Shown piece by piece: positions 23,315 to 50,966 of a stretch of 59,291 nt of DNA. Position 1 is the stretch's first letter, and each line of letters opens with the position of its first letter. Location of the stretch: positions 1 through 59,291 of IMG/VR virus record IMGVR_UViG_3300020438_000039; one strand, given 5' to 3'. The notes beneath the pieces were generated by a model that saw only the letters and a program-made list of their open reading frames with translations, searched no databases and was not told the origin of the DNA. This DNA comes from a virus. The translations under genes and the position numbers were made by a program.

Positions 23315-23322
23315 TATTTATG
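23315..23322 (-). promoter_or_regulatory. Late promoter box inside the end of the giant gene
   Basis: The minus strand reads CATAAATA, an exact late-box match. It overlaps the stop region of the 8396-residue gene and lies about 20 bases before the ATG of the gp9/10-like gene. It would let the downstream genes be transcribed without crossing the 25 kb gene. Confidence 0.65.
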
Positions 23323-26300: not shown

Positions 26301-29300
26301 TAACTACTACCAACACCATTTACAGAAACAATTGCCTGTGCATTAGATTTAGTTCCAGTTAATGAAGTATTAGATGTCCAAGGAGTTCCTACAAATTCAC
26401 CAATGATTAAATCCCAAGTTTCTGAATTATATTCTAAAACTTTAGCAGATCCCTTATCCGAAGTGATTAATTCACCAACTTCAAATCTTCCAACAACACT
26501 CTCAATAGTTATGTTATGAGCAATAGAAGAATCACTGATATCTGTAGTTAACAAATCATGACTCATGTTAGTAATAATACTATCAACCCAATCATTGTAT
26601 AACCAAGTATTAGTACCAAACTGTGCATTAACTAGAGTTGTAATTTCCTCCTTATAGTATCCTCTATTATAAATGAGATTCTTAGCAGCACCTCTCATAG
26701 GTCTCTTACCTGGAACAAGAAGATTGATTGCAGTATTAACTAATTCTTTAATCCTAGTTCCAACTACTGACATATCAGTAGGTGTTTCACTATCAGTATA
26801 TGGATCATCAAATGAATGCACGTAAGCATAAAGAGGATCAACTCCTGAACCACCTCTAATTCTTAACTCACCTTTAACAGCATGCTCACATAAGAATCCT
26901 AATTGCTCTATAGCATAAACTGTTGCTAGAAGTTCATCTTCAACATTAATGATTTGCATCGCAGAAGACAAGTAGTATTCCATTGCAGCAATGGTACTAT
27001 TATTACCACCAGTCTGTAAGTCAGAAATAATACCAAGAATGATTAATTTAATATCTCTCTGACATGTAGTTTCTCCACCTGGTTCTGGATAAGAGAAAGC
27101 AAACTGTTGAGAAGTATCCAACATGTAAGTAAACTCTGCAGATGTTAAACCAGTAATCTCAGATGCAATACCATCTCTATTAAAGTAAAGTCTATCAGCA
27201 GCAATTGCGAAATCAGCATTTGTAGGAGCAATAATATCATTTGCAATAGTTACTAAGTTATCAATAGCAGTAGTAACGTTTGTACAATCTGCTGGTGCAG
27301 TTACCGCATCAGTAACAGCAGACTGGAATGTATGTAATGTGGTGTTAGAAGAGATTCCAACATTAACAGTTACTGTGGTAGCTGTTACATCAGTAATTTC
27401 AATATTACTTTCAAATACAGGGTCTGTAGTTCTAGGATATGTGTGATCACTACCATTACTATCTTCAAGACAACGGAACGTTAATCCATTCGTTGCAATT
27501 CTTATCATCCTACCCTTAACCAGACTATGAGAACCAATAGTTAACACTAACTCACCTGTTGTTGGTTCATAAGTTGCTCCAGTAGGTGTGAATGATGCAG
27601 AAACAGATTCTGTAATTCCCCAAGCACCAACAATAATCTTATCAGTATTACCTGTTGTTAGATCACCATTAACTGCTTGCTTCATATAGAATGCAAGACG
27701 TTCGTGGGCATAAGCAGACTGGAATGCCTGTAAGCGAATATGTAGTAGAATATCATTAGTACCAAGATATCTCTTAGCAACATTTACAGTATTGAAGTTA
27801 CCACCATCTCTAAGATCTTTAATAAACTCTTGGAGGATTAATGCTAGGTCAGTCTTACACTGTAATGTACCAGCACCACTTCCATCAAAGTTTCTAGGCA
27901 TATCCAAAGCAAGGTCTGGATATAAAGTAAGCATATCGTTTGATGCTTTATCAACAATAGGACCAGCATTCAACTGAACTAAATTAGCAGCATCTATAAA
28001 TCTATACTTACCTGCAGCACCAATCTGATTAGTAAACATGATATCTTCTGTACCATCATGCCAATTAATTGGGAACTCTTCTTCATAGTAAGAGTATATT
28101 CTACCACCAAGGAATTCATGTGGAGGTGAATATCTAACAAGACTACCGAGATAATCAACAGGTGGATTCTGTAATGCAGAATCTAATGTATCTGTAACAA
28201 TACTAATTAAGTTCTCTATAGTTGTTTGTACATCAGTACAATCAGATGTATTATAATTAAGAACTTTAATTCCATTTGCAGTTGTTTGTGCAAAATTGTG
28301 TATTGTTAATTGGTGCTTAACTGCTCCAGGATCACAAGATACGAATGTGTGTGTTGCCTGTGGAGTGTATGAAACAGTATTAGAACCTTGGTTACCTACA
28401 AAGGTATGTGTATAATCACCACCAGTAGTAATAACTGATCTAGTAAGACAATTAGCAACTACAGAATGGAAAGTATGTGCGGTTATATTAGTAGAAGGAA
28501 CTACATCTAATACCTGTATATCAAATGTATTAGTTTGTACATTAGAAATTGGGATCCACTTATTACTTACAGGGTCAGTAGAACGTGGATATGCATGAGT
28601 TGTCTCATAATTATCATGAGCACAAGTAAATTTCAATCCACCATCAGAAATCTTAACATGCTCACCATTAACAAATCCGTGGTTAGCAAGGGTTAATGTC
28701 ATAACACCTGTACTTGGATTGTAAGAAGCATTAGTAGGTGAATACCTATTATTTGCATTCTGGAATACATGAGTTGTTGTATTACTTGAAGTTCCTACAT
28801 CAAGAGTAATTGATGTGGGAGTTACACCAGTAATATTGACTGCGGTATTCCATGCAGGATCGTTACCAGATGCACCACTTTGACCATTTGCACGAGGATA
28901 TGAGTGATCAGAACCTTGTCCATCTTGATCGCAACGGAATACAAGTGAATTATTAGCAATTCTAATTGCTGTACCAGTACTTAAACTATGGTTACCAATA
29001 GTAACAGTAAGAAGTCCAGTTCCAGGAACGAAAGATGCATCAGTTACATCATATCCCTTAACAGGTGACTTACCAACATTGACTGTTATTACACCACTCT
29101 GTCTTCTAATACCCTTAGTAGCAGCTTTCTGGAATATATGAGTTGTAGTATCTGAAGAAGATCCAACATTAACTTCAAATGTATCATTAGTTTTGTTGGA
29201 AATTTGTAACCATCTACCACTAGCATAGTCTGTAGATCTTGGATATGCGTGATCAGTACTGTTACCATCAAGCAAACATCTTAGAGTTAATGATTCATCA

Positions 29301-32300
29301 GCAATCTGAATATAATCTCCATTAGAGTATCCGTGTGCAGGTACTGTTAGAACCATCAAACCAGATCCAGGAGTATACACAGCATTTGTTACTGTTCCAT
29401 GTGTATGACCTACATGAGTAATTGGAATAGACTTAAGATCTCCATATGGATCTGTTGCACGAGGATAATCCTTATTAGAACCATTACCATCCATTCCACA
29501 TGTGAATCTTAAACTCTCATTTGCAATAGTAACATTTGCTCCAACTCTCATACCATGCTGACCAATTGTTAGAGTCATCTCACCAGACTCAGCATCATAA
29601 GATGCATCAGAAGGTGTGAATGTTTGGTTTGCTTGTGCAACACCTACATTAAGACTTATTGTATTAACCGTGGTTCCAAGAATCTTAAGTTTCTTTCTTG
29701 CTGCACGAACATCATGTCCTGGACGTGGATAAGACTTAGTAGTCTGATTATTATCCATTAAACATGTAAATTTCAATGCATTATCATCTAAGATGACATA
29801 ATCATCTGAAGTTAAACTATGACCCTCTAAAGTTAATATCAATACACCTGTAGAAGGATCATATGCAGCAAAGGAAGGTGTATATGAAGTATAATTTCTA
29901 TTATCACCAAAAGTAGTACTACCCACATTTACAGTAAATGTATCAGCAGTGTAATGAGTAATAGGTAATGCAGACTTGTATGCTGGATCTGTCTTACGAG
30001 GATATGGATGATTAGTTTCAGCACCATCCATATCGCAAGTAAACTTAAGTGCATCAGGTAGAATTTCTATTGACTGACCCTGATTGTATATTCCATTAAT
30101 AGTAGCAGACTTAAATGTATGATTATAAACACCACCTGTATGAAGTACTGCTCTATGAACACCACCAATAGATGCAGATACAAATGTATGAGCATCAGTA
30201 TTAGTGGAAGGTGTAGAATCTAATACCTGAATAGTAAATGTATCAGTAGTTACATTACCGATAGGTACATACTTACCGCTAATTGGGTCAAATGATCTTG
30301 GATATGACTTATCTGTTGCACTACCACCAAAACTACAATTAAAGACTATGGAATCATCATCCATCATAATATGATCACCAGATTCAAATCCATGATTAGG
30401 AATTGTAAGTGTCATAACACCTGTAGTTGGATTGTAAGCACCATCAGTTACTGTATAAGCACTAGGAGAAACAAACTCATGTCTATAGATACCACCAGCG
30501 ATTACAGCATTCTTTCTTGCCTTAGCAAATGTATGACTGTGATTACCACCAGTTCTTAAGATACCTCTAGTAATACTATTAGAAACAGCAGATACAAATG
30601 AATGTGTATCAGTATTTGTGGAAGGAACTACATCCAATACCTGTACATCAAATGAATTGGTAGAAACATTAGAAACAGATAACCATCTACCACTAGCAGG
30701 GTCAGATGATCTTGGGTAATCCTTCTGTGCAGCACCACCAGATGCACCACCAAATGCACAACTTAACTTAATAGCACCGTCATCAATCATAACTTGCTCA
30801 CCATTTGCCATATTGTGATCATTGACAGTGATAGTCATGACACCTGTAGTTGGGTTGTAAGCAGCATTAGTAGGTGTTAACTTAGTTGCAGCAACATAAT
30901 TATGAGTAGTTGTGTCAGTTGATATACCAACATTCAAATTAATAGTACCAGTTTGACTATGAAGACTACTATCTGCAGCAGATACAAATGTATGAGTCGA
31001 TGTATCACTAGCTTTACCAATATAAACATCGAATGAATCTGCTAGAACATTACTTAATGGTAACCATTCATTGAATGATGGATCACTTCTTCTTGGATAT
31101 GAATGCTCACTAGCACCATTATCCTTACCGCATGTAAATGTTAATGCATTCTCTGCAAGTTTAATGCAAGAATTTGCTTTAGTTAATCCATTAGCAACAG
31201 CAGATACAAATGCATGTGTAGTTGTATGTGAAATTGGTGCTGGACCAAACATATTACCAACATTAACATAGAAGAAGTTCTTACTTGTGTTGAATATTGG
31301 TAACCATCTATTACTTGCAAAATCAGATGTTCTAGGATAGTCATGATTGCTTGCATTACTGTCCTTATTACATGTAAATCTTAAAGATCCATCAGCAAGT
31401 TTAATTCTATCTCCATCTTGGAAACCATGACCAGCAACAGTAAGTTTCATTACACCAGTAGTAGGTGTAAATGTAGCAGCAGTTACTGTATGATTAGTTG
31501 ATAATGCAAATCCATGATTTACCAACTGAATGTTCATAACACCAGTAGCAGGAACATAAGTTGCTAAAGTTGGTGTATGTGCATTAGTTCCTACAGATGT
31601 AATAGGAACAGGTTTGTTATATGCATAATCAGCACCACCAGGAGCGTTAGAACCTGATGCTCTAGGGTATTTCTTCTGAGTACTATTACCATCACCATTA
31701 AAGTCGCATGTGAAGGTCATAGACTCTTCACCAATCATCACGGTTTCATTAGTTCTGTATACTCCATTAGTAGAAGCAGTTACGAATGTGTGGTTATAAT
31801 CACCACCAGAAATTATTGCTTCTGAAGATGTACCACCAGTCCAGTTATGAGCAGTTACATCGGATGAAGTACCAACATTAAATGTAATTGTTGTTGCACT
31901 CTTAGCAGTAATTACTACAGGAGTTCTCCATGCAGGGTCAGCAACACCAGCATTCTGTATAAATCCTGTTTCTCTAGGATATAACTTAGAAACTGTATCT
32001 CCATCAAGACCACAACTAAATGAGAATCCATAATCCTTAAGCATTATTGGCTCACCAACTTCAAGAGAGTGAGATCCGATAGTTGCTTCAATAAGACCAG
32101 TTGCAGGATCAAATGTTGCAGTTGTTACATTATGTTTTACAAGAGGTGAAGCACCAACATTAACTTTAAATGTGTCAGTTGTTATTCCTACAACTGCCAA
32201 CCACTTATTAAATGATGGGTCTGTAGATCTTGGATATTGCTTATTAGTTGCATTACCATTCATTGTACATGTAAATGTAATGCTATTTTCTGCAAACTTA

Positions 32301-38300: not shown

Positions 38301-41300
38301 CCAACTTGCCAACCAGAGTTTGTAGAAACATATCCAGTCGCAGTAGCAATATCTAAAGATTCTCCTTGATAAACTAATTCACCTTCTAAGAAAGTAGATG
38401 TAATAACATTAGCTTCAGCAGCACCACCAAAAGATTCAGTTAATACACTTTGACGACCATCACCAGCATTGACAAATGTAAGACCATCACCAAGTTCTGC
38501 GTTAGCCTCAGTGATAGCAATTTTTAATTGATCATCTTCTAGTGAATTTGCTGAACCAGAAATAGCATAGTAAGTAGTAACTCCATTAAGACGACCAGTA
38601 GCACCAGCAGATAGTGGGAAATCAGCCCCATCTCCAGTGTCAGTCACTGCCAATGAAAGTTCAGCACCATTAGGTATTCCATGAGGATAAGCAAATTGTA
38701 ATAAACCTAAGTCTAAGTTAACAACATAGTTGAAAGAAGATCTTAAACTAACTTGTGGTGTGGAAGAATATCCAGCACCAGGATCTTTAACAACAATGTT
38801 ATCTAATCTACCATTCTTAATAGATGCTTCTGCCTGAGCACCAAATCCACCACCACCTTGAACTATTACAGCAGGTGCTAATGAATATCCAGAACCTGGA
38901 TTGGTTACTGTAATACTTTCAAGAATACTTGTAGAAGTTAATTGAGCATTTATTGGGAATGTAATCTCAGGACGTAAAGTATAGTCATGAGGATAATCAT
39001 AACCAAAGTTATTATTCTTAAGTTTCTTAATCTTACCAACCTTATCCCCTCTAGTGAAGATAGATGCTTCAGTACCAAAAGGAGGAATAACAACAGTCAA
39101 TACTGCACCAGATCCTTGTAACCCTGGTCCAAGAATACCTGGAATTCCTTCGATATCAACATAAGCAGTAGTATATGCCTTACCTGGAGAAGTAACAACT
39201 ACCTCTTGTATTTGACCAGGAATTGTAATACCATCATCATCACTTCCATCATTAACTAGAATACTAACTAAACCACCTTCTCCATCACCTTGTATAGGAA
39301 CAGAGTTATAAACACCAATAGCATATTCAGTACCTGGTTCATTAATTTGAACCCTTTCAATATTTCTTGTTGATTGAATATCTGTAACAATAGGTAATTT
39401 AGTGTAGAATCCACCAGCATTAACTATACGAACATCTGCAATAGCACCAACTGCTTTCAGAGAACTTGTGCTATAAGATGTTTGACTGACATTTGCATTT
39501 CCTTCTGGTTCATTAGCAAGAAGGAACTTAAATATATCTGCACCTTCAGTAATAGTTGCACCAGCAGTACTTGAAATAGTAAAGATGCCCTTATAAGGAG
39601 AATCTGTAACATCTAGATAACTACCATCAATTACAGGAGAATCGGCCCCAGTTCTAGATGGATCGAAATAATATGAGATATTAGTAACAATATCCTCATC
39701 AATCTTCACCTTAACTGTAGGTGTAGGTTGTCCTTGACCAGTTATACCAGGAGTACCAATTCTTTCAATAGAGTTGAATGAATATTCCAACTTATAAAGA
39801 TTATCCTTAGCAAAGGATAAGTTTCCACCAACCATTGAAGAATGACTTAGGTCAAACAAATACTGGTGACCATAATACATTTTTAGAACAGGAGACTTAA
39901 CATATACACTAACACTACCTGCTGATGTAGAAGGTGAAGTTACAGCAGCTTGATTTAACTTGTATGTAAATTCTAATGGACTGATAACACTATCAACTGG
40001 GAAAGCACCATCATATTCATCGTAAGTAGTGCCACCAGATTCTTGTGCTGGATTACCATCGATATAAACCATCTCACCATTACTTAAGTAATGACTTGTG
40101 GAAGTAATAACGTATACTTCATCAGTATTGGCAACAGCACTAACTTGAACAATCTTTGTTAGATTTGATGTTAAAGTAATCTTAAGAACACCAGCCAAGT
40201 TAGTAATTTGACAAGTACTATAAGCAGCATTAAATGTTATATCACTGGATGTGATATCAACAACAGATCCAGGAATATATGTCGATCCACCTGAAACCTC
40301 ATCTATTCTAATTGAATAATCATTTACATCAAATGACTTTAATTTTGCAAAATCATCTAAATTATTAGTTCCACCAATATCTGAAGGTGCATCAAAAGTA
40401 GCAAGATCTATATCAAATGTTCCTGGAGTTGTGTTATTAATCTCAGTAAATACATAATTTTTAATTTCATTGATATCATTTGGAAGAGGACCAATAATAC
40501 CATAACTATTTTGCTCACTGAATTGTTGTGTAATTAATTCACCATTATCCAAATCATCAGTCCAAGGATTGTGAATAATAGCAAGATATATTTTATTAAC
40601 AGAATTATCCTTTTTAATAATATAACCACTATTAATAAACGTACCGTTAGCATTTTGAAGTACTAATTTAGAACCAACTGTAAAATCAAATGACTGATTT
40701 AACGTAAGTTCTTGTATATTATTAATGACAGTTGTTGATGTAGGTTTAATGTAGTACCTATCTTTAACAACAGCAGATACCCTTAACTTTTGAGATCCTG
40801 GAGAAGGAACAGTTGAAGTTCTAGCACTCCAAACATCAGCAGCATAAGTTAGTGTCTCTGTGTCCTGAGACATAGTTGTTGTAGCATCATCAAAGTCTAA
40901 TGATTGGAAACCTGCTTCTGCTAATTCAAAACCAGTACTACCAATAGTTAACTGTGATCCAGAAACAACATCAATATTAGTTCTTGCAAATCCAATCTGA
41001 GTATTTGTTTGTAATCCTTGATCACCTAAACGATCTGAATCAGCATTCTTATCAATCTTTAAACCAAAACCAATATAATCATCATACTCATATCTTCTTA
41101 TTTGAGCAGCAAACCAAGCAGTATCTGTCCAAGCATATCCAAAACCAAATTGAGATGCTTGTGGAAGTCCATTAATATCAGATGGTGAAGTTGGAGTTAC
41201 TGCCCTATTCTTTAATTTAATATCATCAAGGAAGAATTGTCCTTGTGTATCCTTATCAAAATCGTTAACACCAGCACCAAATCCAGGTCCAACACCAAAG

Positions 41301-44300
41301 TATAGATCCTTACCAGCAAATGTTGTATTTGATATAGTTCCACTAGCTACTAGAACACCATTAACATATGATGAGAATAGATTTCCAGCCTTAGTTATTG
41401 CAACTGAAATCCAAGTATTATTAAGCATTACAGAAGAGGCACTTGAAATAGCAGAAGCATTAACAATTTGAGTTGAACTATTAGCAATTGTTAAATCTAA
41501 ACCACGACCTGTACCAAATCCTAACCAAAGACCACCAGTAGCATCCTGAGAACTACCAATCTGACATAAAGTCATTAAGTTTTGACTTAAACTAAATGGA
41601 AGACCAGAATCTCCATCAATGTATACCATCATCTGAATGGTAAAGTCACCATCCAATGTAGTACCTAATTCAGAAGAAGATGCTTTAATATGACCATTTT
41701 CCCAAGTAGTTTGAGTATTAGCTGGTACATTACATCCATCAATCTTTGCTACACCACTCACATATCGTATAGAATTATTAGCACTTTGATCTGTAATAGT
41801 ATAATGAGCAGAGAGATCAGTAAGAGGAGCTCCACCATCATCAAAATCTAAAATAAACTCATTTCTATTCCATTGAGTTTGACCATAAACATATACATCA
41901 CCAGATACATCCACATCCATCGCATTTACGGTAATACCTTCAATTTGATTCTTATTAAATTCATTTGTACTATGCTTCTTCATAGTACCGTCATAACCAA
42001 TCTTAACAGTTCCTACAGTTGTTTTTCTAGTAACTTGATCATCTTTTGTGTATGCAACGTTAAGATCACCAAATATATCAATAACAGCATTATCAACTAA
42101 AGTTAATTCTCTACCAGTAGCAAGATAACGATAATTCCAAATTATATTACCTTCTGAATTTAATTTACCTACCCAGAAACTATCTTTAGTAGTATCATCA
42201 GACTTAAGTCTGCAAGTTGCAGTAATATAAAACTCATTAAATTCGTCTATAGTTAAGCTAGTGTTTAAGAAGGAATAAACTGTATTACTTAATTCCTTTA
42301 TCCAATCTATTGATATTGCATTAATACCAATAGTAGCCTTACCAAAAGCTAAGTTAATATCTTTAGAGTCAGGACCAGAAGCAGTTTCCATAGTGAAATA
42401 TACACTATCACCAATGATTAACATATCTGTTAATCTTTCAGATAAAGTTCCAGATGCAATCTTTCTCTTAACAGCAAAATTACCTGTAGTATCAATAGAT
42501 GCTATAAAGGCATCATCAGGATTTAATGAGTTTGTATTTGTATATCCACCAATAACATAACGAATATCTGAATATTTCTCAATACAAGTAACATAATCTG
42601 CACGATTAGCACCAGATATACCAGCATATCCTTTTTGGAAATCTAAAGTAGCATCCAATCCATCTATAGATTGAGTATACTTACATAAGATAATATCTGG
42701 ATTATAAACATCCAACATGTTTGCATTAGGTCTATTATTACCTACAACCCAAATTTCATCATTCGTATATGCATTTTTATTAACATATAATTTCTGGAAT
42801 TCTGTATAGAATTGACCATCTGTACTTTCTAGAGTTCTTTCCCACTCTTTAACACCTAGAGCAGAATACTTGGATATAAATGCAACGGTATTTCCAGTAG
42901 TATCTTTTGTTTTACCACAATAGAATGTCTCTTTTTCATCATTAACATAGACATCATTAACACAAACATAATTGTTATTTGATATCGTTGTTACATAATA
43001 ATCTGCCTTCTTAAAAATTTGTGGATGACTTAATATAACACGAGGACTTGTAGTATAATTTGATCCAGAATTGATAATATTAACTGTATCAATAGATCCA
43101 ACAGAACTAACTACTGCTTCTAATTTACCAGCAGTACCATCACCATCAATAATAATTGTTGGTGGAATCTCCTCATCATATCCAGAACCAGCCTGATCAA
43201 TTACAATAGATTCTATACCCTTAATTTGACGAACTTTAAAAGATTTGTTCGTATTATTCATTATAGGAGTATAATCTACAAATACTTCATCACCAGTAAC
43301 CAAATTATGTGGAACATTAGTATCTAAAACACCGTAATTCAATCCATTAACGTTCTCAAAACTATAAGAATCTACAGATTCACCCTTAATTCTAGAAATA
43401 CGGGCAGAAACACCAGCTCCGTCAGTACCTGAATTATCAAATGTAAGTATATCATCAACCTGATAGTTCTTTCCTGGGTTTTCAATAGTAAATCCAGTTA
43501 CAGAAGCATCTTCAAATTTGGTTATAGTCTCAACTTCAATATCAACTTTAGAGTCAAACTTAACTTTAGGGAAATAATCAAATAACTGTAGAGGTGACTC
43601 TTCATACATCTGAGCAGGATCTGCAGTCTCATCAGCAGTAATAATACCATCACGGTTAACATCCTCAACCTCAAACATTAAGACATTACCATCTTCAGTG
43701 GTTAATGCAGAAGTAGAAGCATTTGGTGTTCTTGATACATCAATATCAACATTTTCGTAAGGATCCCTATATCTTACAACACCAGAAGGAATATTTTGTT
43801 GTACCGCACTAGTTGAAAGGTTCCAAGTATCAACAACTGAGTTGTAACTTGGTCCAATAACATATGGGAATAATGCATTACCATCTTCTGTAGCATCAAT
43901 AGTTACAAAATAACAATATCTACCCTCTGGATAATCTGGAGTCTTACAAAAACGACCATTATATTGGTCTAGATCTCCTAATCCAAAGACATATTCATAA
44001 TCTTCAACAAATTTACCTGCAGGATATAGATAATCACCATCTGAATCTACATCTGTAAGAAGAGGTCCATCACTTCTTACAGGATATGGATTGGTTGTTG
44101 AATCAAATACAAGACTCTCTTGTAATCTAAACGAAGTGTTAAGTCTAATTACAGCAGATCCTTGGTCAGTTGGATCAGTATAACCATAAGGACCATAAAT
44201 TGGATTACCATCAAATGCCCAACCAATAATAGGAGAGTGTCCCAACTGATCTTCTTTTTCTAAAGTTTTGCCATAAGCATCTTTATAAAGGTTATCACCT

Positions 44301-47300
44301 AAAATATACCTCATTCTCTGAGGATTGGATAAATGAGCATATTCACCACCATACTCATTATTATAACCAGTATATACACCACCTCTTGCATCATCAAATA
44401 TAGAAGTGGATTCTAAATTATAAGTCCATTCAAATACATCTGACTCAAATAAAGCATCTTGACCAACAGAAGTTAGATTAATAACTGTAGTACCTTGAAG
44501 ATAGTTAATACCTCTGTTAACAATCTCAATTCCAGTTACCCTACCAGCATTTTCACCATCAACATCAATTGTTGCTCTTGCAATAGCACCGAAACCATCA
44601 CCTTGAATGGTAATTTCAGGTGCAGTAGTATAACCTTGACCAGCAGAAATTATAGCAATAGATATAATTCTTCCATTATTAACGATAGCCTGTGCAACAG
44701 CACCACTACCAGAACTTAATGATATGGTAGGTTTTGAAGTATAAGAATTACCACCATCAGTAACATCAATTGATTTAATAGGACCACGTACAGAAGCTGT
44801 ACCTTGTGCTCCAGTACCTTCACCACCAACAATAGTAATAGAAGGTTGTGAAGTATATCCAGTACCTCCAGTATTGATTAGAATACGTGAAACTTCACCT
44901 TTAGTAATAATTGCCGTAGCAGCAGCTCCAGACCCATCACCACCGACTATAGAGACCAATGGTGAGGTTGTATAACCAGAACCACCATTTGTAACTGTAA
45001 TTTCATTAATAGAACCATCAACAGTTACTGCTGCTGTTGCTCCAGTACCTCCACCACCAGATACGGTAATTGCTGGAGGAGAAGCAGCATCATAGTCTTT
45101 ACCAGAGTTTAATATATTAATACCAGTTACAGCACCAAATGTCTTGCTTAAATCTGACTTATAAGACCATACAGAGACACCATTAACCCATGTACCAATA
45201 GGACCAGGATTAATAAGGTCTTTAGTTGAAATTGTTTGTGCAACTTTAGGGAACCTGTTTAATTTACGCTGGTTGCCTGGAAGAAGTGCAGATCCTGGGA
45301 AAGGACCAATTTCATAGTTTGGAATACCTGTAGCAGCAACATAAACGTATTGATCATTAAAAAATGAGTTTTGTACGTTTGTAGTATAGGGGCTAATAGC
45401 ATTAAAGATAGCAGTGTTAAGTGACTTACCTTTATTAAGGTCAATAGATACTAAAATATTACCTTGTGGTTCAACTGTAGCAGGTTGTGGTAAATTATAT
45501 TGGAAAATATACTCACCATCTCTAGATGTTACAAGAGAAGATCCGTTATAGATGATTGGGTTAGCACCATATATTGTGACTTGATCTCCAACCAATAGTC
45601 CATGAGGGTTAGCACAAGTTACAGTAGCAGATTGATTGTTAACACCACCATAAGTGATACTTGTAACCTCAATTAGTTTTTTGACGTTATATAACCAAGT
45701 TGTTAAATCTGGATTAACACCAGTACCACCTAACTTAGAAACTGTTAATTTATCACCAGGAAGATAGTAAGATCCAGTATCTGTTAAAGTTGTTTGTTGA
45801 GCATCAACAATACCAACAATATTCATTACAACTTCTTGAAGAGTACCCTTATTGATATAAATTCTAAAATTAGACTTTACTTCAGTAGCAGAATCCCAAT
45901 CTTCAACTATACCATTAACAGAACGAGTACATTCAATAAACTGGTTTAATGATTTCTCCTTATATTGTACAACTTCAGTACCACCAATAACAAATTCACC
46001 GTTTCTTTCTGGCCAACCAATAGTGGAGTCAACTGTAATAATACTATCAGTTGTAGATAAAGGCTCACCCAATCTTGTTTTATATGGTACTGTAAACGTT
46101 CCTGTAATAGTCTCTTCTGATAATACAAGTTCAAAAATCTCTAATTCGGAGGTTTTAATTGATATAAAGTTTTCTACAAGTGCACTTGCATTTTGAACAT
46201 TAGGATCAGCAATATCAGCTTCTTGAGTTATAAGACCATCCTTAATATTAACAGGATCACCACTCTCCAAAGATGCACGAAGAATAGTATCAATAGACCA
46301 AGTAGCGTTAGATGGCTTAATAATTTGATCTTTTGGATAAGAAATACTTACAGTTTCACCATATAATAACTTAAAGAGATACGCAATACTAAAAGATGTA
46401 CCCTTAGATGAATAAAAATCTTTAATTGATTTTATAGCATTTCTTACATCAATCTTTGTATAATCTAGACTTGGAACATCTGGAAGGAATTGTTCTGTAT
46501 ATTTGTCAAGAAGTCTCTTAACAAAGAGTTGATCCAAGCATTTTACTGCAGTATCAACCTCTGCAGATGTTGCAGTAGTGTTATTCGTGAAAACTGCGTT
46601 ACCATCTTCAGTATATGCAGTAATACCACTTGCTGCTCTAGCACAACCTTCAAATTGTGCTTTTGTATATTTACTACCATTCTGATTTACAATAAATCCA
46701 GTAACTTGGTTTAATCCCACAGTTGCAGATGCTTCTGCAGATGGTGGATCTTGAATGAATATTGTTGGAGGTTTAGCAGCACTATAGTCTCTACCAAAAT
46801 TAACAATATTAATATCAATTATTCTACCATTGAATATTGATGCTACTGCAGTAGCTCCAGTACCACCAGCATATGCTCCAGTCCCATCTGTTCTATCATC
46901 TAAGATGTATACAGAAGGAACATCATCATATCCACTACCACCACTTAAAAGTTCAATAGAAACAACTCTTCCGTCACCATCAACCCTTGTTTCTAATACT
47001 TGAGCACCTACAGGATCCTTAATCATCACTCTAGGTACAGATTCATATCCCTGACCAGAATTTAAAACATTAATACTTTGAACTTGACCATCTACTAATA
47101 CTGCTTGTAATGAAGCCTTGATACCATCTTCACCTGTTGGTTCATCAACATAAATTTCAGGAACTGTTGTATATCCAAATCCCTTATTTAAAACTTCGAC
47201 AGTTCCACTAATAGAACCACCAACAATGTATGGAACTCCAATTTTTGCACCACCAGGCTGTTGGAAAGTCAATCTGGGTGTAAAGGTATAACCATTACCA

Positions 47301-48508
47301 GAATTAAGTATTTCTAAATTACTAACCTGTCCATTAGTAACTGTTGCCTTAATTTCTGAAGTTTTTGCACCAGGTTTTGTTGGATCTTGAACAACAACAG
47401 TTGGTGGGTTTGTATCACTATATCCCTTACCACCATCCAATAATTGTACTTCCTTAACACCGTTAACAAGTGCTGTTGCAGAAGCACCACTACCAGTTAA
47501 ACTATTGACAGATACTTTTGGTGGATACTCATATCGATAGTTATCACCATTAACACTTGTAGAAATTCCTGTAAGGCTTCCATCATCATCAATACGAGCA
47601 TATCCTACAGCATCAGAACCAAAAGAAGGAATTGGTGCTTCAACAGCAAATAATTCCAAATATCTACCATTTAAAGGTGGATTTTTAAATATAAATTGAT
47701 CATGATCAATATAAAATTCTTCTTTTGGGATTAAAAGTTGATTATCATATATTGCATAAACGTATTCGTCAATAACTGGTTCATATCTCTCATTATTCCT
47801 AGTAATAGTGAATTGTCTCTTATCATCACCAAAACTATTGGATATATTATCAATTTGTACTATAGGACTCTCAACAAAACCACTCATGTATGTTATAGTA
47901 GTGGAAGATGTGTCATCAGCATCCAATTTTGCTCTAGGAGGCTCAGTAAAGACAATATCAGTACCATCTACAGCAAAATCCAAAACAGGTACTTGTAATT
48001 CACCATATACTTTAACAATTAGATGCTGTGCAGATGGTGGAGCAATAGGATTATCCTGTGATGTTAACGGAAATCTCTGCTTAGAACCATCAAAAAGTGA
48101 TAATGGACTTGCAAGACCAGTCCATTTTAACTGAACCTGCTCATATGAAATACCTGGACTTAACGCAATGTTAGGTGAAGGAGTTGTTTTCTCGTAATAT
48201 ATTACTTCGTCGCCAATTAATAATGAACCATTCTTCTCTAAAAAATCATCAACAGACTCTACAATTATCTTATCATCAGTGGCAGTTATTGGCTCTACAA
48301 TCTTTGTCGTACCATCAAGAATCCCAACATCCAGTTTATCAATATCCAGATATTGTAAGAAATTATTAACTATATTCTGTCCTAGACCAGTTTTTTCCTG
48401 AGATCTATAATAGTACTCAATAAATTTATTAAACAGTGGATAATCCTGTTCAACAAAATCAGGAGTTAATGATTTAACTGACTGAGAGACCTTATTCGTA
48501 TTTGACAT
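23318..48508 (-). CDS. Giant 8396-residue baseplate/tail protein in the gp7 position
   Basis: One unbroken 25.2 kb frame (roughly 0.9 MDa product). It follows gp6 by 6 bases, the place of gp7, the wedge initiator, in T4-like phages; direct homology to T4 gp7 is not visible to me. Parts in order: N-terminal core (DFVEQDYPLFNKFIEYYYRS, residues 15-60); GGxGY cluster (about 300-610); helical core (about 650-720); second GGxGY cluster (1120-1335); YHYH domain (about 1390-1550, IIGWAFDGNPIYGPYGY); beta-propeller-like region (about 1840-2215); LamG-like domain (2220-2440); third GGxGY cluster (3050-3260); SYYYQDFSYAVKSAVSISEW motif (about 3467); second LamG-like domain (4055-4240); YPR repeat array (about 4305-6705); helical GGN domains; a carbohydrate-binding-like jelly roll (about 7410-7650); 'NGILQPPG ... 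FSEPP' units (about 8090-8280). Likely role: wedge anchor carrying long peripheral appendages. Confidence 0.8.
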   Translation of the reverse strand: MSNTNKVSQSVKSLTPDFVEQDYPLFNKFIEYYYRSQEKTGLGQNIVNNFLQYLDIDKLDVGILDGTTKIVEPITATDDKIIVESVDDFLEKNGSLLIGDEVIYYEKTTPSPNIALSPGISYEQVQLKWTGLASPLSLFDGSKQRFPLTSQDNPIAPPSAQHLIVKVYGELQVPVLDFAVDGTDIVFTEPPRAKLDADDTSSTTITYMSGFVESPIVQIDNISNSFGDDKRQFTITRNNERYEPVIDEYVYAIYDNQLLIPKEEFYIDHDQFIFKNPPLNGRYLELFAVEAPIPSFGSDAVGYARIDDDGSLTGISTSVNGDNYRYEYPPKVSVNSLTGSGASATALVNGVKEVQLLDGGKGYSDTNPPTVVVQDPTKPGAKTSEIKATVTNGQVSNLEILNSGNGYTFTPRLTFQQPGGAKIGVPYIVGGSISGTVEVLNKGFGYTTVPEIYVDEPTGEDGIKASLQAVLVDGQVQSINVLNSGQGYESVPRVMIKDPVGAQVLETRVDGDGRVVSIELLSGGSGYDDVPSVYILDDRTDGTGAYAGGTGATAVASIFNGRIIDINIVNFGRDYSAAKPPTIFIQDPPSAEASATVGLNQVTGFIVNQNGSKYTKAQFEGCARAASGITAYTEDGNAVFTNNTTATSAEVDTAVKCLDQLFVKRLLDKYTEQFLPDVPSLDYTKIDVRNAIKSIKDFYSSKGTSFSIAYLFKLLYGETVSISYPKDQIIKPSNATWSIDTILRASLESGDPVNIKDGLITQEADIADPNVQNASALVENFISIKTSELEIFELVLSEETITGTFTVPYKTRLGEPLSTTDSIITVDSTIGWPERNGEFVIGGTEVVQYKEKSLNQFIECTRSVNGIVEDWDSATEVKSNFRIYINKGTLQEVVMNIVGIVDAQQTTLTDTGSYYLPGDKLTVSKLGGTGVNPDLTTWLYNVKKLIEVTSITYGGVNNQSATVTCANPHGLLVGDQVTIYGANPIIYNGSSLVTSRDGEYIFQYNLPQPATVEPQGNILVSIDLNKGKSLNTAIFNAISPYTTNVQNSFFNDQYVYVAATGIPNYEIGPFPGSALLPGNQRKLNRFPKVAQTISTKDLINPGPIGTWVNGVSVWSYKSDLSKTFGAVTGINILNSGKDYDAASPPAITVSGGGGTGATAAVTVDGSINEITVTNGGSGYTTSPLVSIVGGDGSGAAATAIITKGEVSRILINTGGTGYTSQPSITIVGGEGTGAQGTASVRGPIKSIDVTDGGNSYTSKPTISLSSGSGAVAQAIVNNGRIISIAIISAGQGYTTAPEITIQGDGFGAIARATIDVDGENAGRVTGIEIVNRGINYLQGTTVINLTSVGQDALFESDVFEWTYNLESTSIFDDARGGVYTGYNNEYGGEYAHLSNPQRMRYILGDNLYKDAYGKTLEKEDQLGHSPIIGWAFDGNPIYGPYGYTDPTDQGSAVIRLNTSFRLQESLVFDSTTNPYPVRSDGPLLTDVDSDGDYLYPAGKFVEDYEYVFGLGDLDQYNGRFCKTPDYPEGRYCYFVTIDATEDGNALFPYVIGPSYNSVVDTWNLSTSAVQQNIPSGVVRYRDPYENVDIDVSRTPNASTSALTTEDGNVLMFEVEDVNRDGIITADETADPAQMYEESPLQLFDYFPKVKFDSKVDIEVETITKFEDASVTGFTIENPGKNYQVDDILTFDNSGTDGAGVSARISRIKGESVDSYSFENVNGLNYGVLDTNVPHNLVTGDEVFVDYTPIMNNTNKSFKVRQIKGIESIVIDQAGSGYDEEIPPTIIIDGDGTAGKLEAVVSSVGSIDTVNIINSGSNYTTSPRVILSHPQIFKKADYYVTTISNNNYVCVNDVYVNDEKETFYCGKTKDTTGNTVAFISKYSALGVKEWERTLESTDGQFYTEFQKLYVNKNAYTNDEIWVVGNNRPNANMLDVYNPDIILCKYTQSIDGLDATLDFQKGYAGISGANRADYVTCIEKYSDIRYVIGGYTNTNSLNPDDAFIASIDTTGNFAVKRKIASGTLSERLTDMLIIGDSVYFTMETASGPDSKDINLAFGKATIGINAISIDWIKELSNTVYSFLNTSLTIDEFNEFYITATCRLKSDDTTKDSFWVGKLNSEGNIIWNYRYLATGRELTLVDNAVIDIFGDLNVAYTKDDQVTRKTTVGTVKIGYDGTMKKHSTNEFNKNQIEGITVNAMDVDVSGDVYVYGQTQWNRNEFILDFDDGGAPLTDLSAHYTITDQSANNSIRYVSGVAKIDGCNVPANTQTTWENGHIKASSSELGTTLDGDFTIQMMVYIDGDSGLPFSLSQNLMTLCQIGSSQDATGGLWLGFGTGRGLDLTIANSSTQIVNASAISSASSVMLNNTWISVAITKAGNLFSSYVNGVLVASGTISNTTFAGKDLYFGVGPGFGAGVNDFDKDTQGQFFLDDIKLKNRAVTPTSPSDINGLPQASQFGFGYAWTDTAWFAAQIRRYEYDDYIGFGLKIDKNADSDRLGDQGLQTNTQIGFARTNIDVVSGSQLTIGSTGFELAEAGFQSLDFDDATTTMSQDTETLTYAADVWSARTSTVPSPGSQKLRVSAVVKDRYYIKPTSTTVINNIQELTLNQSFDFTVGSKLVLQNANGTFINSGYIIKKDNSVNKIYLAIIHNPWTDDLDNGELITQQFSEQNSYGIIGPLPNDINEIKNYVFTEINNTTPGTFDIDLATFDAPSDIGGTNNLDDFAKLKSFDVNDYSIRIDEVSGGSTYIPGSVVDITSSDITFNAAYSTCQITNLAGVLKITLTSNLTKIVQVSAVANTDEVYVITSTSHYLSNGEMVYIDGNPAQESGGTTYDEYDGAFPVDSVISPLEFTYKLNQAAVTSPSTSAGSVSVYVKSPVLKMYYGHQYLFDLSHSSMVGGNLSFAKDNLYKLEYSFNSIERIGTPGITGQGQPTPTVKVKIDEDIVTNISYYFDPSRTGADSPVIDGSYLDVTDSPYKGIFTISSTAGATITEGADIFKFLLANEPEGNANVSQTSYSTSSLKAVGAIADVRIVNAGGFYTKLPIVTDIQSTRNIERVQINEPGTEYAIGVYNSVPIQGDGEGGLVSILVNDGSDDDGITIPGQIQEVVVTSPGKAYTTAYVDIEGIPGILGPGLQGSGAVLTVVIPPFGTEASIFTRGDKVGKIKKLKNNNFGYDYPHDYTLRPEITFPINAQLTSTSILESITVTNPGSGYSLAPAVIVQGGGGFGAQAEASIKNGRLDNIVVKDPGAGYSSTPQVSLRSSFNYVVNLDLGLLQFAYPHGIPNGAELSLAVTDTGDGADFPLSAGATGRLNGVTTYYAISGSANSLEDDQLKIAITEANAELGDGLTFVNAGDGRQSVLTESFGGAAEANVITSTFLEGELVYQGESLDIATATGYVSTNSGWQVGPRILKIVNHDGVFSENERITGVISKSSGIISDLKVARGVLDIGSITKTTGQFIDDVGKPSEIIQKIQDSYYYQDFSYAVKSAVSISEWKEILIRNVHPASFKVFGELNLNEYGQIPNKETFFQLTKSVELAQEAVVPNIQSFALVEPIYSEFNNTEVLFRQKRLTSSENILTSVVQRVDNIDHLFDGERIAFPLTVEGGTVVANANQLMIVLNGVVQNPNTSFQIQGDSIVFSEPPSPPASVKYANLTISQIQTYNLTWNNQSGIYPLIGNSLIGTSSQARLIVTSVTGDVISGYMDEGTFILGELCTVSATGFSGNLVDITAVSNIGLYTYGETVTNLQGDTAKVEQINLETGAESPVCDLRYAIGPSTTEFEVVPVDSTGPLPAGTIDVVENDGFRIGSEIMEVLTVVDGSESTTITVVRGVLGTQATAQQEGSPMYSTDINVTEALTLSKTAGTYQSTPGLYNIQLNDVIIGAKSGTVSRITTASVYQDPVTGEFIGQVDISPGSSFFGLLFNRITSTSYPNVVIDDISKSQISIVDFDDNATAYNTNFPSNEIVSNYIIPYSNEVGTLQIGEDIRNYKIEYGNNTGEFTAGEDGRVRKISMYDKEGDGFFNAGQIIRTRDTKAEVIGYNQARGIVYLGKIGRSLQDGQDYYEFDFANDAVISSTHKKFGSTSLSLDGAGDYISVASTSEIAFGTGEYTIEFWCRPDTAALAGLAEIYDTRTSDPEISGRIYLNGAQIRYNVNGSDIVTSGATVIPTNNTWYHIAVSRTGTTVKLFLDGVEVGSATDSSTYVARPIRIGATYSATNAFAGYIDEFRISSVARYTGAFNAPAGIHQGDVDTKVLLHFDSAAGDKFVDDWSGGESFSNAEYFNNDPIVASRRYIGDHTYVGGTVSGAVIIQQGIVPKDVTDATYNGLTGDLVLTIGSHSYTTSNTVKIAHNSLTFTCDMDSNATQHTYPRVTDPVYDTAIAITAVTATTITVNVGVAIQQGFAKNSHRYNNAGQLILKNLEFIAKEVVYMINHRFPNFTVIGGDANCEDDVKDICRSIVADMRNGGNDKTWLATSYYIDRTDTANVKLLNIETEVRETIWAYNKLDLMLEFIVTNSEWKPVGDHGLKQYTDTSITDSSTTSFTYKTPTGATYDADTGNLTMTDVGHGLVGRRSVTVQNGTTYNAETGILSVTSASHLFQNGDKVMLEKESLTFTCDMDGHKTEHKYPRASDPALAGWLTVSNSQTNTFDLDVGKSPLLVFNPTGGSYDASTGHMKLQIGNNILTPGTNIKVAPNSIYFRCTSDGLQAVKKYPRTTDPIAGKPTPIAYDGEQLSASFANYTPTTGVMKITAGKTFTPLDATYNAVNGMMNLTIPDHGMVAGDTVRLEDGAITFTCGMDDHYSTHAYPRTTDPKRGLQLSITNVQTHSFSVNVGISPKVQLTPNNGIYNPTTGMMTLEFNTAHGLTAGTSIKIAKESLTFSCGFGGASGDAAKKSYPRSTDPFYDTAVKIESATTNAITIKILENVPSTNTDTHTWVGATTGCIHTGGDYEHIFYSALTNGVVANKHGLINGDRIKLATDSLTFVCQLDNQITEHSYPRATDPYNGRWMAVSNVGANTFDVNVGISPDTSSHIFKSAYLNGITKRDGSITLDVGKSPRVGYDVAGATYDPLTGDMVLNVGIHNLLENQTIQIADNGLSFTCSMDGNATTHSYPRLTDPSRKHALNITDVGETSKTITGAGYTPSTGRMTLTVNGHNLNPATTHTPTDATYNPATGELELTIVGHSFVNGDRILLDDDCLTFTCGKDNHQSQHTYPRASDPSSMKWLSVQNIHVDRFTVNIGKSQDLSDHRFISATSTCLKRAKDSVKFDDDSITFRCDKDAQATDHTYPRVSDPVHQQWIPVTESLDVNTIVLNVGKSSDTSTHAYQTATSGGLKVQTGYVTVNVGKTPTVSHNPSSVTYNPGTGSMAMSIGNHYLRGGSQHTASTASYEASTGIMTITVANHGFSVGDYIKFAENSITFTCTMNGNATNKQYPRSTDPSFNKWLAVVGITTDTFKVNVGASPLVKHNVTTATFDPATGLIEATIGSHSLEVGEPIMLKDYGFSFSCGLDGDTVSKLYPRETGFIQNAGVADPAWRTPVVITAKSATTITFNVGTSSDVTAHNWTGGTSSEAIISGGDYNHTFVTASTNGVYRTNETVMIGEESMTFTCDFNGDGNSTQKKYPRASGSNAPGGADYAYNKPVPITSVGTNAHTPTLATYVPATGVMNIQLVNHGFALSTNHTVTAATFTPTTGVMKLTVAGHGFQDGDRIKLADGSLRFTCNKDSNASNHDYPRTSDFASNRWLPIFNTSKNFFYVNVGNMFGPAPISHTTTHAFVSAVANGLTKANSCIKLAENALTFTCGKDNGASEHSYPRRSDPSFNEWLPLSNVLADSFDVYIGKASDTSTHTFVSAADSSLHSQTGTINLNVGISTDTTTHNYVAATKLTPTNAAYNPTTGVMTITVNDHNMANGEQVMIDDGAIKLSCAFGGASGGAAQKDYPRSSDPASGRWLSVSNVSTNSFDVQVLDVVPSTNTDTHSFVSAVSNSITRGILRTGGNHSHTFAKARKNAVIAGGIYRHEFVSPSAYTVTDGAYNPTTGVMTLTIPNHGFESGDHIMMDDDSIVFNCSFGGSATDKSYPRSFDPISGKYVPIGNVTTDTFTIQVLDSTPSTNTDAHTFVSASIGGVHRAVLHTGGVYNHTFKSATINGIYNQGQSIEILPDALKFTCDMDGAETNHPYPRKTDPAYKSALPITHYTADTFTVNVGSTTFGDNRNYTSYTPSFAAYDPSTGVLILTLEGHSLTSDDYVILDDNALKFTCLMDNNQTTKSYPRPGHDVRAARKKLKILGTTVNTISLNVGVAQANQTFTPSDASYDAESGEMTLTIGQHGMRVGANVTIANESLRFTCGMDGNGSNKDYPRATDPYGDLKSIPITHVGHTHGTVTNAVYTPGSGLMVLTVPAHGYSNGDYIQIADESLTLRCLLDGNSTDHAYPRSTDYASGRWLQISNKTNDTFEVNVGSSSDTTTHIFQKAATKGIRRQSGVITVNVGKSPVKGYDVTDASFVPGTGLLTVTIGNHSLSTGTAIRIANNSLVFRCDQDGQGSDHSYPRANGQSGASGNDPAWNTAVNITGVTPTSITLDVGTSSNTTTHVFQNANNRYSPTNASYNPSTGVMTLTLANHGFVNGEHVKISDGGLKFTCAHDNYETTHAYPRSTDPVSNKWIPISNVQTNTFDIQVLDVVPSTNITAHTFHSVVANCLTRSVITTGGDYTHTFVGNQGSNTVSYTPQATHTFVSCDPGAVKHQLTIHNFAQTTANGIKVLNYNTSDCTDVQTTIENLISIVTDTLDSALQNPPVDYLGSLVRYSPPHEFLGGRIYSYYEEEFPINWHDGTEDIMFTNQIGAAGKYRFIDAANLVQLNAGPIVDKASNDMLTLYPDLALDMPRNFDGSGAGTLQCKTDLALILQEFIKDLRDGGNFNTVNVAKRYLGTNDILLHIRLQAFQSAYAHERLAFYMKQAVNGDLTTGNTDKIIVGAWGITESVSASFTPTGATYEPTTGELVLTIGSHSLVKGRMIRIATNGLTFRCLEDSNGSDHTYPRTTDPVFESNIEITDVTATTVTVNVGISSNTTLHTFQSAVTDAVTAPADCTNVTTAIDNLVTIANDIIAPTNADFAIAADRLYFNRDGIASEITGLTSAEFTYMLDTSQQFAFSYPEPGGETTCQRDIKLIILGIISDLQTGGNNSTIAAMEYYLSSAMQIINVEDELLATVYAIEQLGFLCEHAVKGELRIRGGSGVDPLYAYVHSFDDPYTDSETPTDMSVVGTRIKELVNTAINLLVPGKRPMRGAAKNLIYNRGYYKEEITTLVNAQFGTNTWLYNDWVDSIITNMSHDLLTTDISDSSIAHNITIESVVGRFEVGELITSDKGSAKVLEYNSETWDLIIGEFVGTPWTSNTSLTGTKSNAQAIVSVNGVGSSYTWFNSPGNVRTINFAKNITSNISGQVSGLNLFSNPELFVPNWTGTGVGFSDNFTDAPDNTRTATKLISSNAGGEHTVDRTYDLTAFDTWDDGNITFDDITNSFDEGGSGTGDDQQYTFSCFFKKAEYEQVRFHIILDDGTAGEQSVFFDLNMNTGNTGTLFIPQGGISGDAYGAVPYGGGWYRAYVTTTFSFGFTELKARINVSNENNQLSYTGDGTKGVYAWGTKLSKGTLDPYTSASDGIFYADGEFNIKRYALDRLEEYIIAAMTDSLTSPSPEAGYLKFFSADAAGYYDIRSVSRVVRDNLKLLSEQLAVDTYYTTITVNNGITIPTYTYGTRELPVGLGGGLKPSDYLYGTNSDSYAELETIVPNKGEIVKIYQRFRFDGDVVDGPWVMNETVAKNGDATVTGVIYGIHEDENFSYLDLEITGNPWSITDYVVGSTNNTTAQISLIEDRIQIIDLDGEFDATVPFKGYTSGGTATPTNFLRNEAAILDNTGGTLTVDTETLVGSFEKTSVVYPETSRQFVTVSKYNGLDIGVGDRIASNGYVRIGISIISDLSQFSVGNRLYKVIGGVADQNNYAIITEVDVDNNFLYIADYQGDNITNGDLVGDYGLGGNFPVGYASVITRVETPGAGAALVQDIRPDGQYKRLYLSDIIGTFDLKDSVIGPGDYRAAVQAKVDLNARVKRAFKGFDGTQDTFNLTIDNGNNYLPDPEGHLLVYINGILQPPGGTNAYTAFSNQIQFSEPPEIGASFTGFYVGKLRQLDDISFEFDSLRQSFNLKRNDVFYSLTLTEGVQSSTIRPENNIIVSLNGVIQEPGVGFEIVGSRIIFSEIPRVGSTFVAFSYVGSEADVDAAEVVPPIEPGDFIDIQGETADREVAVIESSNSLITFDYLGSVFGQNAKASANLTSGFINDVQVTSGGSGYTTRPNVRIDSISGFDGNIRALVGVAGVEMNAAGSGYKDPTVTVETTVPLDWNAPNLADYGEEEVDPETP
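25570..26270 (-). other. Carbohydrate-binding-like jelly-roll domain in the giant protein
   Basis: Within the giant protein, about residues 7410-7650 show the pattern common to sugar-binding jelly rolls of phage tail proteins: LNLFSNPELFVPNWTGTG, later YTFSCFFKKAE, then GGGWYRAYVTTTF and finally GVYAWGTKLSKGTLDPY. This suggests contact with host surface glycans, but the ligand cannot be read from sequence. Confidence 0.55.
26850..27290 (-). other. Helical CxxD ... GGN domain, copy 3, in the giant protein
   Basis: Residues CQRDIKLIILGIISDLQTGG followed by NNSTIAAMEYYLS, and further E-x-x-L and AVKGEL phrases, form a helical segment of roughly 120 residues. Copies at about 27620-28260 (CKTDLALILQEFIKDLRDGG) and about 34940-35310 (CEDDVKDICRSIVADMRNGG) share the same Cys, Asp, GGN and helical spacing. 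These three bracket the YPR array. I do not recognise the family. Confidence 0.6.
28400..35590 (-). repeat. YPR repeat array (22 copies here, a 23rd at about 27300-27600)
   Basis: The encoded unit averages about 100 residues: GVMTLTIxxHGxxxGDxIKI, then xxSLxFTCxxDGNxTxHxYPRxTDP, then xxWLPIxNVxTxTFxVNVGxSxDTxTHxF. The YPR codons fall near bases 35416, 34643, 34385, 34107, 33836, 33535, 33190, 32885, 32660, 32227, 31975, 31660, 31328, 31089, 30709, 30296, 29996, 29722, 29458, 29237, 28890, 28582 and 27431. Each unit has one invariant Cys in the FTC-type position and usually a His two residues before YPR. Copies have diverged clearly, so the array is old and under selection rather than a recent slippage product. 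Confidence 0.85.
35790..36340 (-). other. LamG / concanavalin-like domain in the giant protein
   Basis: Residues about 4057-4240 show the LamG-like pattern: GSTSLSLDGAGDYISV, then YTIEFWCRP, NNTWYHIAVSRTGTTVKLFL and GYIDEFRISSVARY. Such domains bind glycans or protein surfaces. A more diverged example lies at about 41190-41850 (DFTIQMMVYIDGD, then NTWISVAITKAG and FLDDIKL). Confidence 0.7.
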
Positions 48509-50540: not shown

Positions 50541-50966
50541 TTAAGTAGGTCTCTGTAATACGAATGCTATAGATTCCACAATAGGTAAGCCAACAACCTT
50601 ATATCTAACGGATACTGATACTTTACCTGAACTATAATATGGAGTTAAATTACAAGATAATAATTGTACTCGACTTTCATACTGATTAATGGTATTTATG
50701 ATGTCACTTTGTATTGAATCGACTGAGAATGCATCCAACTGTTCAAAAAGTCTTTGATATATTCCACAACCAACATTACTTCTAAATAATTTTTCTCCTG
50801 GTCTAGTTAAGACTAGATTTTTGATAGATTGTTTAATTGAATTTTCATTTGATACCTTTGAACAATCATCAGTAAACCTATTTTTAGAAAATGCAATATT
50901 AATATCAGCAAACCGCCTGGATTTACCTTTAGTTAAATCTGCTCCTGTTATTGGTTTTAATGCCAC
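50541..50966 (-). CDS. 25: Baseplate wedge protein gp25
   Basis: This 141-residue protein matches the gp25-like (lysozyme-like fold) baseplate family: RRFADINIAFSKNRFTDD near the N-terminus, then IKQSIKNLVLTRPGEKLFRS with the family Pro-Gly-Glu-Lys motif, then NVGCGIYQRLFEQLD and a C-terminal SVSVRYKVVGLPIVESIAFVL strand region. T4 gp25 is 132 residues. gp25 contacts gp6 and the sheath base and helps start sheath assembly. The start is a GTG at 50966 overlapping the previous stop as TAGTG, with GAAGGTGA upstream as ribosome-binding site; no ATG fits better. Confidence 0.9.
   Translation of the reverse strand: MALKPITGADLTKGKSRRFADINIAFSKNRFTDDCSKVSNENSIKQSIKNLVLTRPGEKLFRSNVGCGIYQRLFEQLDAFSVDSIQSDIINTINQYESRVQLLSCNLTPYYSSGKVSVSVRYKVVGLPIVESIAFVLQRPT

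Follow-up and report, generated by a model that had tools for sequence, protein, structure and literature searches.

The question raised by this locus is whether a single gene of 25.2 kb, lying where a T4-like phage keeps its baseplate wedge gene 7, is real, and, if so, what protein it encodes and how that protein came to be so long. The window, by which we mean the whole stretch of DNA analysed, comprises 59,291 bases of an IMG/VR virus record. A preliminary description had claimed one unbroken gene of 8396 residues, filling more than 40% of the window and encoding a protein of roughly 0.9 MDa, and these figures hold: the gene is one ATG-started open frame of 8396 codons on the minus strand with 0 internal stops, it takes up 42% of the window, and the computed mass of its product is 904 kDa. 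The features of the locus are collected in Table 1.

The giant gene is real and is under purifying selection along its full length, and this was confirmed with two related records. Against G002, which is 95.0% identical over 8394 aligned residues, the dN/dS of the gene is 0.214 (8394 codons), and against G007, which is 88.2% identical, it is 0.199 (8388 codons), with dN/dS below 0.45 in both comparisons in 24/24 segments that we defined along the gene. Given these low values in both comparisons and in all segments, an open frame of this length is far beyond chance. The reading that fused genes or mis-assembled repeats make up the giant frame is of negligible probability; repeat arrays are easily mis-assembled, and one relative (G018) shows an in-gene frame break, but G002 aligns to 8394 of the 8396 residues, and repeat collapse or false joining is unlikely because the 23 YPR repeats of the protein share a mean pairwise identity of only 36%. 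Both gene ends moreover lie in one open frame in 33/33 distinct related records that hold both ends, four of them GenBank isolate records.

These records were chosen, non-randomly, as the closest by C-terminal similarity. The first set held 45 records (41 of 80 loci, mostly longer contigs, and four phage records), which were probed with the C-terminal 400 and the N-terminal 300 residues of the giant; all 45 hold the C-terminus, and all 27 with a strong N-terminal match (E < 1e-130) keep both ends in one frame. The second set held eight loci, and after one (G047) was dropped from the count, 7/7 showed one frame, with one of these (G043) being S-SM1 again, as judged from its identical record and frame lengths, and therefore counted once. 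The records left out of the 33, namely G047 and the 18 of the first set with no strong N-terminal match, all reach a contig edge except G018. Frame lengths in the 33 distinct records run from 6157 to 8458 residues and exceed 8000 in 9 of them. Furthermore, 123/123 fetched loci, several of them from the same contig, are stop-free from the C-terminus upstream to the locus edge (at most ~10 kb). Taken together, the 27/27 and 7/7 one-frame records and the 123 stop-free loci lead to the conclusion that the giant frame is conserved. A second assembly of the same phage with a stop or frameshift was not found: G002, the closest full record, stays open over 8394 residues, but the more distant G018 is broken. 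The latter is a 32-kb contig with its 5' end missing, where 1234 open codons run off the contig and 5048 follow in another frame; given that the other records have no break there, the likeliest reading is an assembly error or a mutant. The break site lies at contig bases about 28544-28587 (locus L171).

Table 1. Features of the window, listed in the direction of transcription of the giant gene (residue numbers are those of the giant protein unless stated otherwise).
Feature	Position in window	Strand	Evidence or remark
gp25 baseplate wedge	50541..50966	-	Pfam GPW_gp25
gp6 baseplate wedge	48515..50539	-	Pfam Gp6-like_1st
Giant gp7-family gene, 8396 aa	23318..48508	-	Open frame, dN/dS, orthologues, phrog_701 and phrog_18802 on both halves
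Putative gp7 core segment 1, residues 1-60	48329..48508	-	Aligned to residues 1-59 of Ochrobactrum phage OC gp7 (631 aa)
GGxGYxxxP-type repeats, residues about 310-615	46664..47581	-	Self-comparison
Putative gp7 core segment 2, residues about 665-810	46079..46516	-	Motif FYSSKGT...LLYGE; Pfam Baseplate_wedge 682-729
YHYH domain, residues 1387-1539	43892..44350	-	Pfam PF14240, E 7.5e-28
First LamG-like domain, residues about 2236-2440 (approximate)	41189..41803	-	Laminin_G_3, match between two copies
Putative gp7 core segment 3, residues about 3400-3512	37973..38311	-	DSYYYQDFSY...HPASFKVFGEL; profile matches
Second LamG-like domain, residues 4083-4196	35921..36262	-	Pfam PF13385, E 1.4e-22 for protein half
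Main YPR repeat array, residues 4537-6685	28454..34900	-	phrog_1276 with 21 stretches
Conserved C-terminal segment, residues 8095-8396	23321..24226	-	84% identical, nine more distant orthologues
gp9-like tail-fibre connector	22069..23295	-	Pfam T4_gp9_10_N; slot of annotated gp9 in S-SM1
1499-aa baseplate protein (T4-GC399 slot)	17563..22062	-	One YPR unit (its residues 152-249) and YHYH
gp8 baseplate wedge	15992..17524	-	Pfam Phage-Gp8

The relatives are overwhelmingly cyanophages. The first 6000 bases of the gene match 351 phage records at the DNA level, all with Synechococcus, Prochlorococcus or cyanophage names except two named 'Marine', and the protein matches to residues 1-800 also include a few phages of other hosts. 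The cyanophage records that were opened are filed under Kyanoviridae, except P-HM2, which is filed as Eurybiavirus.

The order of genes, assigned with Pfam, is gp25, gp6, giant, gp9-like, 1499-aa protein and gp8, and it is likewise in S-SM1, in keeping with the arrangement of annotated cyanophages; the claimed place after gp25 and gp6, in the gp7 slot, is thus borne out upstream, and gp9 and gp8 follow downstream. The cluster also holds two more very large frames, at 969-8072 and 8634-15986 (2367 and 2450 aa), the second of which occupies the slot of the 'VrlC protein' in S-SM1, and just outside it there is a heme oxygenase gene (52524-53201, Pfam E 1.2e-66) surrounded by three 2OG-Fe(II) oxygenase-like genes.

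The identity of the giant protein was approached through the proteins that fill the same slot elsewhere, with lengths of 503 (YB07), 631 (OC), 896 (Melnitz-2), 1007 (phiM12), 1016 (HTVC008M) and 1032 residues (T4). A giant-family profile, made from the first 4000 residues of 12 giants and searched against seven proteins, to which number its E-values apply, matches small gp7-slot proteins at three places in the same order, at residues ~1-60, ~665-810 and ~3400-3512 of the giant. All three pieces are clear in OC (1-59, 81-191 and 234-280) and in Melnitz-2 (10-140, 161-298 and 571-673); piece 1 in HTVC008M and YB07, as well as piece 3 in YB07, match at noise level only, and phiM12 has no piece 1 in this search. 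Profile-profile comparison gave a probability of 98.7 and E 2.7e-16 for core 2, and 98.5 and E 2.8e-15 for core 3, and core 3 is also matched inside the S-CREM2 protein ORF122. T4 gp7 itself is matched weakly by the giant profile (piece 2 at E 1.1e-4 and piece 3 at E 0.093, among the seven proteins). When a profile of the five small gp7s (Ochrobactrum OC, Stenotrophomonas YB07, Melnitz-2, Pelagibacter HTVC008M and Sinorhizobium phiM12) was searched against all PDB, only T4-type gp7 appeared at E up to 0.1 (E 9.6e-8 and 4.1e-5). The core 2 profile of the giants also placed T4-type gp7 first, but with E 0.013, just ahead of an unrelated transporter (0.025); their core 3 profile found no gp7 in the PDB at E up to 1, and a single-sequence PDB search with residues 1-800 gave nothing credible. 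Since the direct PDB and T4 matches are weak, the link of the giant to T4 gp7 runs via the small gp7s. On this reading, which is well supported by the chaining and weakly by direct comparison, the giant would be a gp7 with ~600 and ~2600 residues inserted between its core pieces and ~4900 more added after the last of them. The gp7 likeness that the preliminary description had placed in residues 1-60 and 620-1000 was recovered there with profiles, together with the third piece further along.

It is distinctly improbable that a tail-fibre-type adhesin has taken over the gp7 slot while gp7 function passed to another protein. Most of the length is indeed adhesin-like or repetitive, and direct similarity to T4 gp7 is weak, but the conserved small-gp7 pieces are present in order and the core pieces rank with the best conserved stretches of the whole chain (80-85% identical among nine more distant orthologues, with dN/dS of 0.03-0.14 vs G002). 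Some database labels point instead to a head, neck or head-closure component, with phrog_701 being called 'head and packaging' and both phrog_460 and the Pelagibacter phage HTVC008M protein 'head closure Hc2'; we consider this highly improbable, given that gene order and gp7-core homology point to the baseplate wedge, that other PHROG matches (phrog_2885, 708 and 438) are labelled baseplate wedge, that T4 gp14, which bears the name head closure Hc2, is a separate gene, and that homology to T4-type gp7 of known structure, traced by way of the small gp7s, contradicts the label. These two readings, like that of an artefact, were each considered and are rejected on the evidence set out with them. 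These head labels (phrog_701, phrog_18802, phrog_460, and HTVC008M at L109 8506-11556) are attached to proteins that gene order and profiles identify as gp7 of the wedge, an error that could propagate.

Between and after the core pieces lie the modules that make up most of the length. Within residues 1-4200, Pfam recognises YHYH, Laminin_G_3 (two stretches) and Baseplate_wedge (one stretch), and it names no domain in residues 4201-8396, whereas PHROG matches span both halves; the earlier statement that the frame codes throughout for recognisable modules therefore stands for Pfam in the first half and for PHROG in both, and does not stand for Pfam in the second half. Self-comparison showed further stretches like the GGxGYxxxP repeats near residues 1111-1350, 1760-1830, 3020-3260 and 8300-8375. 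A profile of the conserved C-terminus of the giants found nothing credible in the PDB, and its fold prediction, from an 8-row alignment, has a mean pLDDT of 32. A very long modular chain with conserved ends might also be a polyprotein that, once translated, a protease of the phage or of the host would cleave into individual structural proteins. We regard this as improbable, since the core spans 3500 residues and cutting between modules would break it; in addition, the available part of a study of T4 gp7 describes it as a monomer of 119 kDa, close to the mass expected of the full 1032-aa gene product, and as present in six copies in the wedge, where it binds gp6 with one copy per wedge and six per baseplate (PMC3004832).

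The most conspicuous of these modules is the YPR unit, of roughly 100 residues with an invariant Cys and a YPR motif. Besides the main array, single copies occur at residues 4311-4406 and 6971-7066, giving 23 in the giant. The invariant cysteine stands shortly before the YPR motif in each aligned unit, and 33/54 cysteines of the giant fall in residues 4301-7066. The large alignment gaps among 12 giants are mainly at window-protein residues about 4200-6970, and across 18 giant homologues, from 2 copies in S-SM1 to 23 here, length follows 6247 + 102 x YPR units (r = 0.95), three other proteins from S-PM2 and S-SSM7 being left out of the fit and the copy count depending on the criterion (G033 has 18 units by that of the fit and 23 YPR motifs). 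Residues outside the repeat hits number 6551-6946 in P-RSM6, P-TIM40 and S-SSM4 vs 5988-6249 in the other 15 giants, an excess of 300-700 residues in these three. Judged from these alignments, the size of the giants appears to differ between phages mainly by the number of YPR repeats, with other sources of length as well. In S-SSM7, 12 YPR units are found in SSSM7_103 (locus L157 17651-26656), two places after gp7, and the S-SSM7 gp7 (3007 aa) has no YPR unit; the N-terminus of SSSM7_103 matches the 1499-aa protein of the window (41% over 80 aa). Since S-SSM7 places its units in that gene, the array is found in one or the other of two baseplate genes that lie close together, a distribution that suggests a mobile and length-variable element that seems to move or expand in either one.

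As to the fold of the repeat, an AlphaFold2 model of two units (from 55 repeat pairs) has a mean pLDDT of 85 and consists of beta strands with short helical turns. Foldseek against BFVD gave 37 matches at E <= 0.001, which are other cyanophage proteins, several named baseplate, structural or tail and many nameless; against the PDB, neither Foldseek with this model (at E <= 0.001) nor a single-sequence search with the array gave a match. With VIA-align, the best match of a YPR unit was to residues 425-501 of the K1F endosialidase (Z 6.7, rmsd 2.1 over 75), and a phi92 endosialidase domain also lies near single units (Z 6.7 and rmsd 2.1-2.2 over 75, with K1F), both of which possibly reflect a common arrangement; region 182-291 of Uba1, which we take to be the FCCH domain, reached Z up to 6.3. 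The endosialidase barrel binds polysialic acid. The repeat is predicted as a small beta domain, and its weak likeness to the endosialidase and Uba1 barrels is suggestive only.

Conservation along the chain is uneven. In the same nine more distant orthologues, the last 300 residues match the core pieces in conservation (80-85% identical), in contrast to the LamG segments (43-49%) and the main array where present (45%); overall, LamG and array segments are 43-52% identical, except for the first YPR unit (65%), and conservation at the level of the core extends to the stretches that directly follow core 2 and precede core 3. The ~1400 residues that precede the conserved C-terminal 300 are merely 49-59% identical. 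A conserved core and C-terminus set against variable LamG and array segments fits a fixed anchor with variable exposed parts. Very likely, then, the giant is the baseplate wedge gp7 of a marine cyanophage of the T4-like type (Kyanoviridae), ~eight times as large as T4 gp7, and we hold this jointly with the following architecture. The three core pieces would come together and join gp6 in the wedge, as T4 gp7 does, with one chain per wedge and six per virion, while the inserted beta-rich modules (YHYH, LamG, GGxGY and YPR) would protrude at the rim as looped side arms and may touch host-surface glycans. The YPR array would be a stalk or a multivalent arm whose reach or avidity depends on the number of repeats; alternatively, the C-terminus, being conserved, may also be anchored, making the array an arch and not a free arm. 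The T4 capsid shell has a mass of roughly 45 MDa, and the 'heavy cost' ascribed earlier to such a protein looks overstated, given that six copies would amount to ~5.4 MDa, which is small beside that shell.

More tentatively, and as a proposal that we think somewhat more apt to be wrong than right, the side arms might be length-tunable, with a beta-domain array (2-23 copies in the 18 giants) grafted into gp7 or an adjacent gene, its repeat number serving to set a rapidly evolving reach or avidity toward the surface of picocyanobacteria, and the split core and C-terminus acting as anchors. In the accessible portions of two studies, an evolution study reports 20 mutated genes, mostly structural, for S-TIM4 (PMC6224464), and mutations in structural genes of S-PM2d are reported (PMC9910659); the giant gene of S-TIM4, ORF_101, is not named in those portions, and no conclusion is based on them here.

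The giant protein of the gp7 slot belongs to a known cyanophage family that is already annotated in GenBank isolates. From annotated GenBank coordinates, the slot holds 8573 residues in the isolate P-RSM6 (CPXG_00128, 'virion structural protein', adjoining gp6), 7351 in P-TIM40, 7312 in P-SSM3, 7124 in P-SSM7, 7041 in S-E7, 6932 in S-SSM4, 6603 in P-RSM4, 6483 in Syn19, 6180 in S-SM1, 6171 in S-SSM5, 4454 in P-HM2, 3048 in S-PM2 and 3007 in S-SSM7. P-RSM6 and the relative G033 (8458 residues) thus exceed the window protein, and the suggestion that the latter is exceptional is not supported. Membership in the family of cyanophage giant virion proteins (T4-GC969/643, phrog_701) is indicated by full-length homology and shared module order, and the phrog_701 match scores 7239 bits on the first half of the giant, where it forms a single stretch from residue 3 to 4197, and 3051 bits on the second half. 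GenBank labels the P-SSM3 and P-SSM4 members 'similar to gp7' or 'gp7', and the S-SM1 orthologue (SSM1_102) T4-LIKE GC 969. That the giant is a virion protein, as had been claimed, agrees with the work of Sullivan et al. (2010), where, in the part available, T4-GC969 is among 41 proteins detected by peptides in purified S-SM1 virions (PMC3037559), and the accessible text on S-CREM2 lists 91 unique peptides in the virion proteome for its gp7-slot protein ORF122, of 1937 aa (PMC10665884).

In full-text searches, judged from titles and the abstracts shown, no description of the protein's size or repeat array was found, and as far as these searches go, none of the titles and abstracts found appears to describe the division of the core, the dependence of length on repeat number, or the occurrence of the array in one or other of two genes. 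The novelty is nevertheless modest, because GenBank isolates already have annotated giants in the gp7 slot, and a report of 2010 found one of them in virions; the useful additions here are the split gp7 core and the repeat-number variation, in an otherwise known kind of protein. Such giants are very large single chains from phages of abundant ocean photosynthesisers, and databases name them 'hypothetical' or 'virion structural', and related families even 'head closure'. A split, inflated gp7, together with one array in either of two baseplate genes, offers a testable hypothesis, namely that the extra mass works in attachment.

Compared with known systems, the closest are the T4-GC969/T4-GC643 'virion structural proteins' (S-SM1 SSM1_102, S-SSM5, Syn19, P-RSM4 and P-SSM7), which occupy the same slot as in the window. 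The orthologues of S-SM1, S-SSM5 and P-RSM4 are 62-66% identical to the window protein over 6045-6447 aligned residues with the order kept, whereas the members of this group are shorter than the 8396-aa window protein (6171-7124 aa) and have 2-10 repeat copies where it has 23. The P-RSM6 member, from a cultured cyanophage, shares the gp6-adjacent slot and the giant size (18 YPR units), but it is more divergent (53% identity over window residues 601-996) and longer outside the repeats. SSSM7_103 of S-SSM7 likewise carries the array, with 12 units vs 23, but in a different gene. The small gp7s and T4 gp7 share with the giant the slot after gp6 and the core pieces in order; in contrast, they have hardly any of the insertions, and the YPR array of the giant by itself far exceeds them in length. 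Finally, the ice-binding MpAFP (1.5 MDa, with about 120 copies of a 104-residue repeat), as described in the part of its literature available, is also a large repeat adhesin built as a long chain of beta domains, and by an analogy that claims no homology, the chain of the giant could similarly hold a binding part at a distance from its anchor, although MpAFP is a bacterial surface protein and the giant a phage wedge protein.
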